Positions 36,570 through 41,060 of a stretch of DNA of 64,000 nucleotides are shown piece by piece; the stretch's first letter is position 1; every line of letters begins with the position of its first letter. Source of the DNA: Leptotrichia wadei (GTDB lineage: Bacteria; Fusobacteriota; Fusobacteriia; Fusobacteriales; Leptotrichiaceae). The notes below the pieces were generated by a model, which worked only from the letters and a program-made list of their open reading frames with translations, ran no database searches and had not been told where the DNA came from. The position numbers and the translations under genes are program-made. The stretch is taken from assembly GCF_007990445.1 (NCBI RefSeq), contig NZ_AP019841.1, positions 1,612,001-1,676,000 on the forward strand, in the 5' to 3' direction.

Positions 36570-37925
36570 ATGTTCAAAAAAATATTAATAGCAAATAGAG
36601 GGGAAATTGCTGTTAGGATAATCAGGGCAGCAAGAGAATTGGGAATTGCAACAGTTGCAGTTTATTCAGAAGCTGATAAAGATTCGCTTCACGTAAGATT
36701 AGCTGATGAAGCCATTTGTATTGGAACTGCCAGCAGCGCAGATTCATATTTAAAAATACCAAATATTATTTCAGCGGCTCAAATTACACAAAGTGAAGCA
36801 ATCCATCCAGGATATGGATTTTTATCTGAAAATCAAAGATTTGCTGAAATATGCGATAAAAATGGAATTGTATTTATTGGTCCAAAACCTGAACTGATAA
36901 GTATGATGGGAGATAAGGCAACTGCAAGGGAAACTGCCATCAAGCATAAAGTTCCGATAACAAAGGGATCAGATGGAATTGTGCCAACTTTGGAAGAAGC
37001 TAAAAAAGTTGCAGAATGGATAACTTATCCTGTTATGATCAAGGCTACTGCCGGTGGTGGCGGAAAAGGAATGAGAATTGCACGTGATGAAAAAGAATTG
37101 GCTGAAAATTATATTGTTGCACAAAACGAAGCAAAAGCAAATTTTGGAAATCCAGATGTTTATATTGAAAAATATGTTGAAGAGCCAAGACACGTTGAAA
37201 TTCAGATTATAGGAGATAAATTTGGAAACGTAGTCCATCTTGGTGAAAGAGATTGTACAATTCAAAGAAGACACCAAAAATTAATCGAAGAATCTCCATC
37301 AGCAGGAATTGATTCAAAAACACGTGAAAAAATGGGAAAATTCGCCGCAAAACTTGCAAAAGGTATTGGTTACGACAGTGTTGGAACATTAGAATTTCTT
37401 GTTGACAAGAGCATGAATTTCTATTTTATGGAAATGAATACAAGAATTCAGGTTGAGCATACAATAAGTGAAGAAATTACTGGAGTTGACCTGGTAAAAG
37501 AACAAATAAGAGTGGCTGCAGGAGAAAAGTTAAGTATTTCTCAAAAAGATATACATATTAATGGACATGTAATTGAATGCAGAATAAATGCAGAAGATTC
37601 TGAAAATGGATTCTTGCCGTCATCAGGAACTTTAGAAACATATATTCCATCTGGAGGAATTGGAGTAAGAATTGACTCACATTCCTACCAAAATTATGAA
37701 ATCCCGCCTTACTACGATTCAATGATAGCAAAACTTATCGTAAAGGGAAAAAATCGGGAAGAAGCTATTTCACGTATGAAACGTGCCTTGAGGGAATTTA
37801 TTATAGAAGGTGTAGATACAACTATTCCTTTCCACTTGAAAGTGCTTGACAATGAGGACTTTAAAAAGGGAACTGTCTATACAAACTTTATTGAAACTCA
37901 CTTTAAGGAAGTTCTTGGGAAATAA
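36570..37925 (+). CDS. accC: Acetyl-CoA carboxylase, biotin carboxylase subunit
   Basis: A 451-residue biotin carboxylase, normal in length. It carboxylates the biotin of BCCP with bicarbonate and ATP, the first half-reaction of malonyl-CoA synthesis. Seen: N-terminal KILIANRGEIAVRIIRAA, the ATP-grasp glycine loop KATAGGGGKGMR, HLGERDCTIQRRHQK, and the catalytic MEMNTRIQVEHT. Follows the accB-like gene; AGGAGG ribosome site. The carboxyltransferase genes accA/accD are not in the window. Confidence 0.96.
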   Translation: MFKKILIANRGEIAVRIIRAARELGIATVAVYSEADKDSLHVRLADEAICIGTASSADSYLKIPNIISAAQITQSEAIHPGYGFLSENQRFAEICDKNGIVFIGPKPELISMMGDKATARETAIKHKVPITKGSDGIVPTLEEAKKVAEWITYPVMIKATAGGGGKGMRIARDEKELAENYIVAQNEAKANFGNPDVYIEKYVEEPRHVEIQIIGDKFGNVVHLGERDCTIQRRHQKLIEESPSAGIDSKTREKMGKFAAKLAKGIGYDSVGTLEFLVDKSMNFYFMEMNTRIQVEHTISEEITGVDLVKEQIRVAAGEKLSISQKDIHINGHVIECRINAEDSENGFLPSSGTLETYIPSGGIGVRIDSHSYQNYEIPPYYDSMIAKLIVKGKNREEAISRMKRALREFIIEGVDTTIPFHLKVLDNEDFKKGTVYTNFIETHFKEVLGK

Positions 37926-37952
37926 TAAACCTATTCAAACTATATAGGTTTA
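37926..37952 (+). terminator. Hairpin after accC, possible attenuator
   Basis: TAAACCTAT (37926-37934), 9-nt loop, ATAGGTTTA (37944-37952), directly after the accC stop. No U-run follows, so it may stabilise the upstream mRNA end rather than terminate. Confidence 0.4.
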
Positions 37953-37964
37953 AATTATATTTAA

Positions 37965-38000
37965 GATGTTATTTAACAAGGGACAAAATCCCTTGCCATT
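37965..38000. repeat. Palindromic intergenic repeat between accC and asp23
   Basis: CAAGGGA (37977-37983), loop CAAAA, TCCCTTG (37989-37995), flanked by TTAA and ATTAAAT. Read on the minus strand it resembles the hairpin at 33694-33720 followed by TTGTTAAATA. Confidence 0.5.
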
Positions 38001-38037
38001 AAATAAATAAATTAATTAAAAATTAGGAGGAATCAAA

Positions 38038-38433
38038 ATGAACGAATTAGGAAATGTAAATATATCACAGGAAGTGGTAGCAACAATCGCAGAATCAGTA
38101 ATATCAGAAATTGAAGGAGTAAACAGCCTTGTTGGTGGAACTTCAAAAAATGAAATTGTTAAATTTTTCCAAAATGTATCTTCAGGCGGAAAAGGAATCG
38201 AAGTGGAAGTTGGCGAAACTGAATGTACATTAGATCTTTACATTGTAGCAAAAATGGGATACAAATTACCAGCATTAGCTGGAGAAATCCAAACAAAAGT
38301 AGTAAAAGCAATTACTGAAATGACAGGATTAAAAGTACAGGAAGTTAATGTCTACATTCAAAAAATTGTAAAAGATGAAAAGAAAGATGTAGTTCCAGCT
38401 GCTGTAGCAGAAACAGCTGAAATCGAAGAGTAA
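38038..38433 (+). CDS. Asp23/Gls24 family protein, YqhY-like
   Basis: A 131-residue Asp23/Gls24 protein: N-terminal NVNISQEVVATIAESVISEIEGV, a central DLYIVAKMGYKLPALAGEIQ strand, and the C-terminal MTGLKVQEVNVYIQKI signature. In B. subtilis the Asp23 member YqhY is encoded directly after accB-accC and affects acetyl-CoA carboxylase, and the position here is the same. It precedes an AmaP-type anchor protein, the known membrane partner of Asp23 in staphylococci. Cytoplasmic, probably tethered through AmaP. Confidence 0.92.
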   Translation: MNELGNVNISQEVVATIAESVISEIEGVNSLVGGTSKNEIVKFFQNVSSGGKGIEVEVGETECTLDLYIVAKMGYKLPALAGEIQTKVVKAITEMTGLKVQEVNVYIQKIVKDEKKDVVPAAVAETAEIEE

Positions 38434-38460
38434 GAAAAAAGAAAGGAGAAACTGACAGAG

Positions 38461-38604
38461 ATACACCATAATTTACTATTATTAATTTTTAAAATAAAAA
38501 ATAGTTTATGAAATAGTGCAAGAACACTCGCAGCTTTAGTCGTGGGAGATTCAGTTAGAAGCTATGCAGATAAGTTATGATAAAACAAATATGGTGTATT
38601 TTTG
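38461..38604 (+). mobile_element. IS200/IS605 (TnpB-type) right-end-like fragment / structured RNA between asp23 and amaP
   Basis: A non-coding 140-nt segment bounded by perfectly complementary 10-mers ATACACCATA (38461-38470) and TATGGTGTAT (38590-38599), the latter followed by T5. Inside are small stems (ACTATT/AATAGT; AGTG/CACT) and CGCAGCTTTAGTCGTGGGAG, which recalls the right ends of IS200/IS605 elements that form the TnpB guide (omega) RNA; a short in-frame run before it ends VQEHSQL-stop, like a TnpB tail. Recognition is from memory. A free AAAGGAG ribosome site at 38441-38447 now lies ~170 nt before the amaP start. Confidence 0.45.
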
Positions 38605-38620
38605 CTAGTTTACAAAATTA

Positions 38621-39304
38621 ATGATTGCAATATTGGGATTTTTAGCAAGATTATCTGTGATACTTGGATTTATCGGTATTGCATTTTCAAGTATATCAGA
38701 TACTTTGTTCAGAACCGATTACTTGGGGCAGCTTGACAGTTTTATAGATTTAAGCAGCCTAAATTTTAAAATTTTAATCGGGCTGTTATCAATAATTTAT
38801 TTAGTCATATTTTTACTTTCTTACATTAACAAACTTACAAAATATTCTCAAAATAGAAAAGTAAAAAATAAAAATGGGGAAATCGAAGTTTCCATCAAAA
38901 CAATAAATGAAACATCAAAAAGTTTTTTAAGTTCAATGGAAATTATAAAAAATTCAAAAGTAAAGTCATATCCAAAAGGAAGATCAGTTATTATTGAAGC
39001 TACTGTTGATACCTACAACGTTGATAACTTAAATGAAAAATTAGCAGATATTCAAAACAAATTATCCGATTACATTTTCCATTCTACTGGAATTACCGTA
39101 AAAAAAAGTAAAGTTAAGTTAAAAAAAGTTTTAGGCAAAACAATTGTTGAAAAAAAAGTCATTGATTCTCCAGCTGTTCAAGAGGAAATTGAAAAAGAAG
39201 AAGAGAAGAAAAAATTAGAAGTTGAAGCAAGTAAAATTAACAATGACGAAAATTTAAAAAATGAAGAAAATAGCAAAACTTCCCCATCTGGAAAGGAAAA
39301 TTAA
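38621..39304 (+). CDS. amaP: AmaP-like alkaline shock response membrane anchor protein
   Basis: A 227-residue protein with two membrane helices (about residues 4-24 and 50-71), a cytoplasmic DUF322-like beta domain (KVKSYPKGRSVIIEATVDTYN, about 100-170) and a Lys/Glu-rich C-terminal tail. This matches AmaP, which anchors Asp23 to the membrane; asp23 is the preceding gene. The ATG at 38621 is the only start possible (a stop codon is 15 nt upstream in frame) yet no ribosome site is near it. Stop overlaps the nusB start (ATGA-type, 38621-39304 ends at the A of ATG). Confidence 0.85.
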   Translation: MIAILGFLARLSVILGFIGIAFSSISDTLFRTDYLGQLDSFIDLSSLNFKILIGLLSIIYLVIFLLSYINKLTKYSQNRKVKNKNGEIEVSIKTINETSKSFLSSMEIIKNSKVKSYPKGRSVIIEATVDTYNVDNLNEKLADIQNKLSDYIFHSTGITVKKSKVKLKKVLGKTIVEKKVIDSPAVQEEIEKEEEKKKLEVEASKINNDENLKNEENSKTSPSGKEN

Positions 39305-39723
39305 TGACACGAAGAGAGATTAGAGAAGAAATATTTAAATTACTTTTTGAATATGAGCTAATTGATAATAATATTGAAAAAAGAATAAATGATGTAATTG
39401 AAGAAGAACATTTGAAAAAAGAAGATGAAATTGATTTCTTAAGAAGTTATGTAACTGACATAATTGCAAATGAAGATATTTTGATTGAAAGAATAAAAGA
39501 TGTTTTGGAAGGCTGGACTTACGAACGTCTTGGAACAATCGAGAAAGTTTTATTAAAAATATCCTTTTATGAAATCACAATAAAAAAAATCGGATACGAA
39601 ATTGCAATTAATGAAGTTTTAGAAATTGCAAAAAAATATTCCTACAATGATACGAAAGAATTTTTAAATGGAATTCTTGCAAGATTAGTAAAAAATATTA
39701 AAGAAGGAAAGAGTGACTTCTAA
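39304..39723 (+). CDS. nusB: Transcription antitermination factor NusB
   Basis: A 139-residue NusB: TRREIREEIFKLLFEYELID at the N-terminus and the conserved IGYEIAINEVLEIAKKYSYNDTKEFLNGILARL at the C-terminus. It binds boxA RNA with S10 during rRNA transcription. The start overlaps the amaP stop by one base, so translation is coupled. Last gene of the acc operon, followed by a strong terminator; the accC-asp23-nusB order is also known in Firmicutes. Confidence 0.95.
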   Translation: MTRREIREEIFKLLFEYELIDNNIEKRINDVIEEEHLKKEDEIDFLRSYVTDIIANEDILIERIKDVLEGWTYERLGTIEKVLLKISFYEITIKKIGYEIAINEVLEIAKKYSYNDTKEFLNGILARLVKNIKEGKSDF

Positions 39724-39746
39724 ATTCATTTTAAAATAGGTTATAT

Positions 39747-39784
39747 AAAAAACTTCTATATTTTTGAATATGGGAGTTTTTTTT
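39747..39784 (+). terminator. Terminator of the acc-nusB operon
   Basis: A 16-bp stem including two U-G pairs: 39747-39762 pairs with 39767-39782 around loop TTTG, ending in a run of T. Confidence 0.85.
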
Positions 39785-39947
39785 AAATAATCTAGTGAAA
39801 TTTTTACTTAAAATTTATATAATAGATTTGTTCATAAACTATCTGTAAATAAACAAATGTTCTAAAGCAAATAGTCTTAATCTTTTGTAAAAAAAGTTGT
39901 TGAACAGATCTAATCAAGCAATTATATTATTAGAAAGGAAAAAATTA

Positions 39948-41060
39948 ATGAAAAAAATAGGAATAATTATCGGGAAATTTTTCCCGCTTCACATCGGACA
40001 TGTAAATTTCATTCAGAGAGCCAGCGGTATTGTAGACAGACTGTACGTTGTCATCTCATATTCTGACGATGCCGATGACCTGCTTACATCCAATTCCCGT
40101 TTTGTAAAGGAAATTACCCCAAAAGACAGATTACGTTTTGTAAAACAGACATTTAAAAATCAGCCAAATATTTCATCTTTTTTGCTAGATGAAAATCATT
40201 TTTCCCAACAAAGTGAAAATTGGGAAGAATGGGCTAACACTTTAAAGAAAGAAATTGAAAAAAGGGAAAAGCTGGAAAATGAAACAGAAATAGACTGGAA
40301 AAACAATGTTATTTTCATAAGCAACCGTGATGAAGATAAGGAGTATAACTTAAAACATTTTGGTTCAGAAACTAGATCCATAGACAAAAATTACATTGAA
40401 TACAACGTCAATTCCAAGCAGATACGTGAAAATCCAAGTAAATACTGGGATTTTTTGCCACGTGAAGTGAGGGAGCATTTAATCCCGATTATTACAATTT
40501 GTGGTGGAGAAAGCAGTGGAAAAAGTGTAATGATTGATAAACTTGCAAATGTATTTAATACAACTTCAGCTTGGGAATATGGACGTGAATATGTATTTGA
40601 AAAACTAGGCGGCGATGAAGAATCCCTTCAGTATTCTGATTATGAAAAAATTGTCTTTGGACACCAGTCAAATGTACTCTATGCCGCAAGAAATGCCAAT
40701 AAGTTTGCATTAATCGACACAGACTATATTGCTACTCTTGCTTTTTGCCTAACTTATGAAAAAAGAGATAATCCAATTGTCCGTGAATTTGTTCAAAATT
40801 ATAAATTTGATTTGACAATTTTACTGGAAAATAATGTGGCATGGGTAAATGATGGGCTTCGTTCAATTGGAGACAATGACAGACGGGAAAAATTTCAAAA
40901 TTTATTAAAACAGCTGTACAAAGAATATAATATTCCCTATATTACAGTAAAATCCAACAGTTATGAAAAAAGATATTTAGCTTGTAAAGATATTATAAAG
41001 GCTTATTTAGATGGTGCTGACAATTCTCAATTACAGGAAATTGCAGACAGTTTTATATAA
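39948..41060 (+). CDS. nadR: Bifunctional NMN adenylyltransferase / ribosylnicotinamide kinase NadR (without HTH domain)
   Basis: A 370-residue two-domain enzyme of NAD salvage. The nucleotidyltransferase domain (about 1-175) has GKFFPLHIGH at 9-18 and the ISNRDEDKEYNLKHFG region. The kinase domain (about 180-350) has Walker A GGESSGKS at 186-193 and the DTDY and DDRREKF-like NDRREKFQ segments. The N-terminal helix-turn-helix of enterobacterial NadR is absent, so it is an enzyme and not a repressor. I start at ATG 39948 (MKKIGIIIGKF) behind AAAGGA; 17 extra codons upstream have no family match. Single gene. Confidence 0.92.
   Translation: MKKIGIIIGKFFPLHIGHVNFIQRASGIVDRLYVVISYSDDADDLLTSNSRFVKEITPKDRLRFVKQTFKNQPNISSFLLDENHFSQQSENWEEWANTLKKEIEKREKLENETEIDWKNNVIFISNRDEDKEYNLKHFGSETRSIDKNYIEYNVNSKQIRENPSKYWDFLPREVREHLIPIITICGGESSGKSVMIDKLANVFNTTSAWEYGREYVFEKLGGDEESLQYSDYEKIVFGHQSNVLYAARNANKFALIDTDYIATLAFCLTYEKRDNPIVREFVQNYKFDLTILLENNVAWVNDGLRSIGDNDRREKFQNLLKQLYKEYNIPYITVKSNSYEKRYLACKDIIKAYLDGADNSQLQEIADSFI

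Follow-up and report, generated by a model that had tools for sequence, protein, structure and literature searches.

As listed in Table 1, asp23 and amaP are neighbours on the forward strand of a 64,000-nt stretch of Leptotrichia wadei DNA (contig NZ_AP019841.1, positions 1,612,001 to 1,676,000), referred to here as the window. The asp23 stop codon TAA occupies positions 38431-38433. A free AAAGGAG lies 8 nt downstream of it, not 7 nt as given in a preliminary description of this sequence, and is the sole good ribosome site for amaP. The gap between this Shine-Dalgarno (SD) sequence and the amaP ATG is 172 nt, in agreement with the earlier estimate of about 170 nt, and no near SD was found when one was looked for at the ATG. 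An in-frame TAG directly precedes the ATG. The start of amaP is correctly assigned, because the N-terminus is identical across the ten genomes that share this arrangement and the congeners with a short spacer start at the matching codon.

A perfect 10-bp pairing between ATACACCATA (38461-38470) and TATGGTGTAT (38590-38599), described previously as closing a 140-nt element, is present in the spacer, but it is part of a longer stem with 22-nt arms. The closing-pair probability of the hairpin in this genome was 1.00, against a mean of 0.14 for dinucleotide shuffles. A promoter scan of the asp23-amaP spacer gave nothing beyond shuffle level. The spacer had been thought worth searching for TnpB omega RNA; a search of 38434-38620 against the families in Rfam returned no significant match to this or any other family. 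A palindrome between accC and asp23 (37942-37995, minus strand) gave a sub-threshold Rfam match to Lnt RNA (29.3 bits, gathering score 55).

Table 1. Features of the asp23-amaP region of L. wadei, in window coordinates.
Feature	Position	Strand	Remarks
asp23	38038..38433	+	131 aa; PF03780, E 4.7e-25
amaP	38621..39304	+	227 aa; NF033218, 77.5 bits (cut-off 55); start kept in all relatives
amaP Shine-Dalgarno AAAGGAG	38442..38448	+	identical in 10/10 genomes with a putative split ribosome binding site
Spacer hairpin, 5' arm AAACTGACAGAGATACACCATA	38449..38470	+	
Variable hairpin loop	38471..38589	+	length and sequence vary among species
50-nt IStron-derived miniature element in loop	38505..38554	+	fused left and right IStron ends; at amaP in this genome only
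Spacer hairpin, 3' arm TATGGTGTATTTTTGCTAGTTT	38590..38611	+	
Unpaired linker ACAAAATTA	38612..38620	+	the entire SD-AUG spacer once the hairpin folds

Thirteen Leptotrichia genomes, found by Asp23 and AmaP searches, were compared at this locus. The order SD-hairpin-ATG was present in 10 of the 13. The unfolded gap in these ten genomes ranges from 54 to 172 nt, and 7-12 unpaired nt are left after folding. Every one of the ten spacers folds as a single hairpin, with closing probabilities of 0.97-1.00 compared with shuffle means of 0.13-0.28. The AAAGGAG adjoins the stem within 0-3 nt. It is invariant in all ten genomes, whereas only 19 of 49 fourfold sites in asp23 and 17 of 43 in amaP are invariant (∼39%). 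In seven of the ten genomes (L057-L063) a second hairpin, of the CTCAAA...TTTGAG type, follows the asp23 stop and precedes the AAAGGAG; it is missing from this genome, G002 and G003.

Conservation of the stem was analyzed in alignments made from loop-trimmed sequences. The stem columns were 88% paired, against 30-54% in slid controls. In shuffle tests, the number of paired cells was reached by 3 of 500 shuffles and the covariation score by 12 of 500; with the MAFFT alignment, changes on both sides of the stem were not above shuffles (404/500). With a hand alignment, both-side changes occurred in eight columns and exceeded the shuffles (p 0.011). Formal covariation at amaP is thus modest on these alignments, by which the stem is nevertheless preserved despite sequence change.

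In the remaining three congeners (G004, G006 and G012) the asp23-amaP spacer is merely 10-17 nt and has no distant SD with a hairpin. G012 has an ordinary SD, AGGAGG, and G004 and G006 have GUGGA. Short spacing was also seen in most of the other genera of the family whose amaP start could be read. A tree built from partial amaP, cdr and typA sequences separated G004, G006, G012 and the outgroup genus G022 from the ten with support of 1.000. This split is consistent with a single gain of the arrangement in the ten genomes.

A covariance model of the amaP element recovered the other short-loop amaP leaders. The own-genome locus was missed in the whole-genome search with this model because its loop is ∼120 nt long. 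Through one weak additional match (L080) a fadA-like gene was identified. In the same ten genomes it has AAAGGAG followed by a hairpin and 7-12 residual nt; the stem is ATACGAGAA...TTCTCGT, with a compensated version, ATATGGGAA...TTCCCAT, in G002. A gene for a CoA-disulfide-reductase-like protein (cdr) and typA were found by scanning sampled stretches. Both carry the arrangement in the same ten genomes as amaP, cdr with a gap of 34-41 nt and a residual of 8-13 nt, typA with a gap of 32-33 nt and a residual of 14 nt. The closing probabilities for the fadA-like gene, cdr and typA were 0.96-1.00 and the residuals 7-14 nt; the stem at typA has a low stability of -3.4 to -4.2 kcal/mol. Counting amaP, a single hairpin fills the gap in 40 of 40 cases (four genes in ten genomes). 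In G004, G006 and G012 the fadA-like gene has an ordinary 9-10 nt spacer, cdr and typA also have ordinary SD spacing, and none of the three genes has the hairpin.

Further sampling yielded pcp and an RND transporter gene. The pcp stem is TGCACGA/TCGTGCA in G011 and TGCATGA/TCATGCA in G005, a compensatory pair, and pcp of G009 has an ordinary spacer. Stems at the RND gene include ACGGTTA/TAATCGT, ACACGAT/ATCGTGT and CATGCGATT/AGTCGTGTG, and all leave short residuals. The RND leaders of this genome, G002 and G003 differ from those of G004, G006 and G012 in stem sequence but not in geometry; in the other seven genomes the gene is a more distant version and has a normal SD. Over its first 400 aa, the RND protein of this genome's group is 97-100% identical to that of two of the three distant congeners and 89% identical to that of the third (L221-L226), and identity to the other seven genomes is about 71%. 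By these comparisons the RND gene was likely transferred horizontally; the leader stems are of different sequence.

Several other leaders resemble these. The gene of a TPR protein (tpr; L248-L260, 5' of position 1501) has AAGGAG followed by a conserved GCTAC...GTAGC hairpin. In genomes with a weak near site the gap measures 77-101 nt, and a near AGGA or AGGAGG is additionally present in some genomes. Since tpr keeps its hairpin yet has a near GGGA or AGGA, it is an ambiguous case, perhaps a site in transition. The long SD-ATG gap upstream of typA in the outgroup genus G022 (L184) contains a short GCGA/TCGC hairpin and is possibly an independent case. An identical 62-nt block of AAAGGAG, hairpin, 8 nt and ATG was found in G009, G008 and G010 (L081-L083, 1501-1562) between differing flanks. 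In this block TAA directly follows the ATG, giving a start-stop behind a putative split ribosome binding site; a membrane-protein gene downstream of the block has an SD of its own.

Far-SD starts were also surveyed in a sample of 864 kb, 36% of the genome. A strong far SD with no near SD was detected at 24 starts. The single-hairpin architecture was seen at 8 of these 24, where 1.67 were expected and 0 of 200 shuffles gave as many, under criteria fixed after amaP, cdr and typA had already been seen. Two of the eight matches (L203 and L213) proved false, as their true start, preceded by a normal SD, lies further upstream. The excess was small in two looser hairpin surveys (4 vs 1.3 and 3 vs 1.6).

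The loop of the amaP hairpin in this genome contains a 50-nt unit (38505-38554) that resembles IS200/IS605 ends and matches both ends of the resident IStrons. The full resident elements are ∼1.9 kb long; between left and right ends that are the same as in the unit, they carry a group I intron and OrfB_IS605/TnpB. Their intron matched RF00028 (E 4.6e-11), its 47.9 bits falling slightly short of the gathering score of 50. The 50-nt unit agrees with the left end of a resident IStron at 37 of 40 positions and with the right end at 21 of 24, and looks like two IStron ends joined at a common CGACTTTAGTCGTG. It occupies part of the apical loop, and the closing stem is untouched. A pattern for the solo unit gave six matches in this genome (38505-38554 included), two in G002 and one in G004, and none at amaP of any other genome. 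Many IStron-like copies with a group I intron and TnpB (e.g. L067, 227-2134) and several 50-nt derivatives with fused ends are present in this genome (G000:C1). An IStron of Leptotrichia buccalis, LbISt1, has already been reported (PMC4227781); the 2014 survey gave one LbISt1 copy for that species.

The IS200/IS605-like core noted in the preliminary description therefore corresponds to the 50-nt unit, but the 10-bp stem is not its boundary. The same description had offered two accounts of the spacer, folding that brings the ribosome site close to the ATG, or removal of the 140-nt element from RNA or DNA as with IStrons. Removal is exceedingly improbable. The unit has the left and right ends of an IStron, a class to which CdISt1-like elements and LbISt1 belong, and is the same in kind as the ends of resident IStrons that carry a group I intron and TnpB. 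Unlike IStrons, however, it has neither an intron core nor an ORF or transposase, and an Rfam search of window positions 37000-40000 gave no match to a group I intron. It cannot splice because the intron is missing, and having no ORF it cannot move by itself. Loss of the 50 nt would still leave an SD-ATG gap of ∼120 nt, and relatives without the unit retain the stem and a long gap. An identity of the whole 140-nt element as a mobile element or IStron was rejected on the ground that the hairpin is present in relatives without the IS-like core. A divergent, non-mobile spacer is conserved in the related species, which is the observation that the preliminary description itself had set against its mobile-element reading.

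Two other explanations leave the spacer in the message. In one, amaP is translated without an SD, by an A/U-rich start, by an S1-dependent route or by carry-over from asp23, and the hairpin, placed by chance between an SD-like sequence and the ATG, acts in mRNA stability or as an RNase III element. The amaP linker and start are indeed A/U-rich, a strong near SD is missing from about one third of the genes surveyed (present in 254 of 371), and the second hairpin of seven genomes also fits this explanation. Yet AAAGGAG is identical in ten genomes at 0-3 nt from the stem, and the residual spacing stays constant. Other genes show the geometry too, and where congeners lack the hairpin, an SD or a G-rich SD-like sequence is found at the usual distance; SD-free translation is accordingly considered unlikely. 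In the other, a short upstream ORF is translated from the far SD, and ribosomes then re-initiate at the gene itself. An ATG does occur 3 nt past the SD in cdr and some pcp leaders (MIL*, MKL*). No ATG, GTG or TTG stands at a usable distance in the amaP, typA or RND leaders, however, and pcp of G011 has ACG in place of that ATG while its stem is kept by a compensatory change. We regard a leader ORF as very unlikely.

The asp23-amaP spacer is most probably a split ribosome binding site, in which the folded hairpin would bring SD and AUG to normal spacing. The folding account of the preliminary description is strongly supported in this respect, as the geometry is kept in the ten amaP genomes and recurs at other genes of the genus on stems of unrelated sequence. 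The SD-hairpin-linker-AUG order was observed in its anatomy, its conservation and its recurrence, and from these we infer that the helix is needed for initiation. In the proposed mechanism the 30S subunit would bind the SD AAAGGAG, the hairpin would project out of the mRNA channel unmelted, and the AUG would be set in the P site at a normal effective spacing, so that initiation would depend on the folded helix. The apical loop would therefore be free to vary. The amaP loop of this genome may have taken up the 50-nt IStron-derived element in this way, with the geometry unchanged. We also speculate that, in the three genomes whose asp23 stop is close to the SD, ribosomes ending asp23 could collide with the SD and stem, which would hold AmaP below Asp23.

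Hairpins between SD and AUG are known from phage T4, where they cut the effective spacing from 22 to 5 nt at gene 38 and from 27 to 11 nt at gene 25 (PMC3014915). Destabilising mutations were shown experimentally to reduce initiation, and the gene 25 structure is kept in close T-even phages and missing in distant ones (PMC3014915). The Leptotrichia amaP leader is similar to these in that its SD is too far away with no near SD, its hairpin restores near-normal spacing with a high closing probability, and its structure is conserved in relatives. In contrast to the T4 genes, the Leptotrichia cases are chromosomal bacterial genes known from sequence, at least four of them clade-wide in one genus, plus others. 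Their gaps range from 27 to 172 nt, and the loops vary freely, one with a transposon remnant.

In E. coli thrS, a hairpin lies between the SD region and a standby segment upstream of it and does not part SD from AUG. The ribosome accommodates this hairpin inside its binding region and does not unfold it (PMC3936740). The proposed Leptotrichia mechanism likewise has a hairpin accommodated in the ribosome binding region, but one that parts SD from AUG instead. In the literature searched, hairpin-accommodated SD-AUG spacing was found only at T4 genes 25 and 38, and the full-text search, which had incomplete coverage, returned no description of a chromosomal class of hairpin-split SD-AUG sites. 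As judged by these comparisons, the Leptotrichia cases would be a new form of a rare T4-type mechanism, one with long loops that occurs on the chromosome, in several genes of a single genus.

It is possible, though rather doubtful, that a class of perhaps 15 genus-wide genes, about the number to be expected from this sample, needs a folded spacer hairpin and may form a shared post-transcriptional regulon, with the stem opened by temperature, a helicase or ribosome traffic. Gene finders that need a near SD will misjudge such starts. The amaP loop illustrates that an apical loop can tolerate a transposon remnant. With several genes and matched congeners without the hairpin, Leptotrichia offers a comparative system for how the 30S subunit tolerates structure within the SD-AUG spacer.
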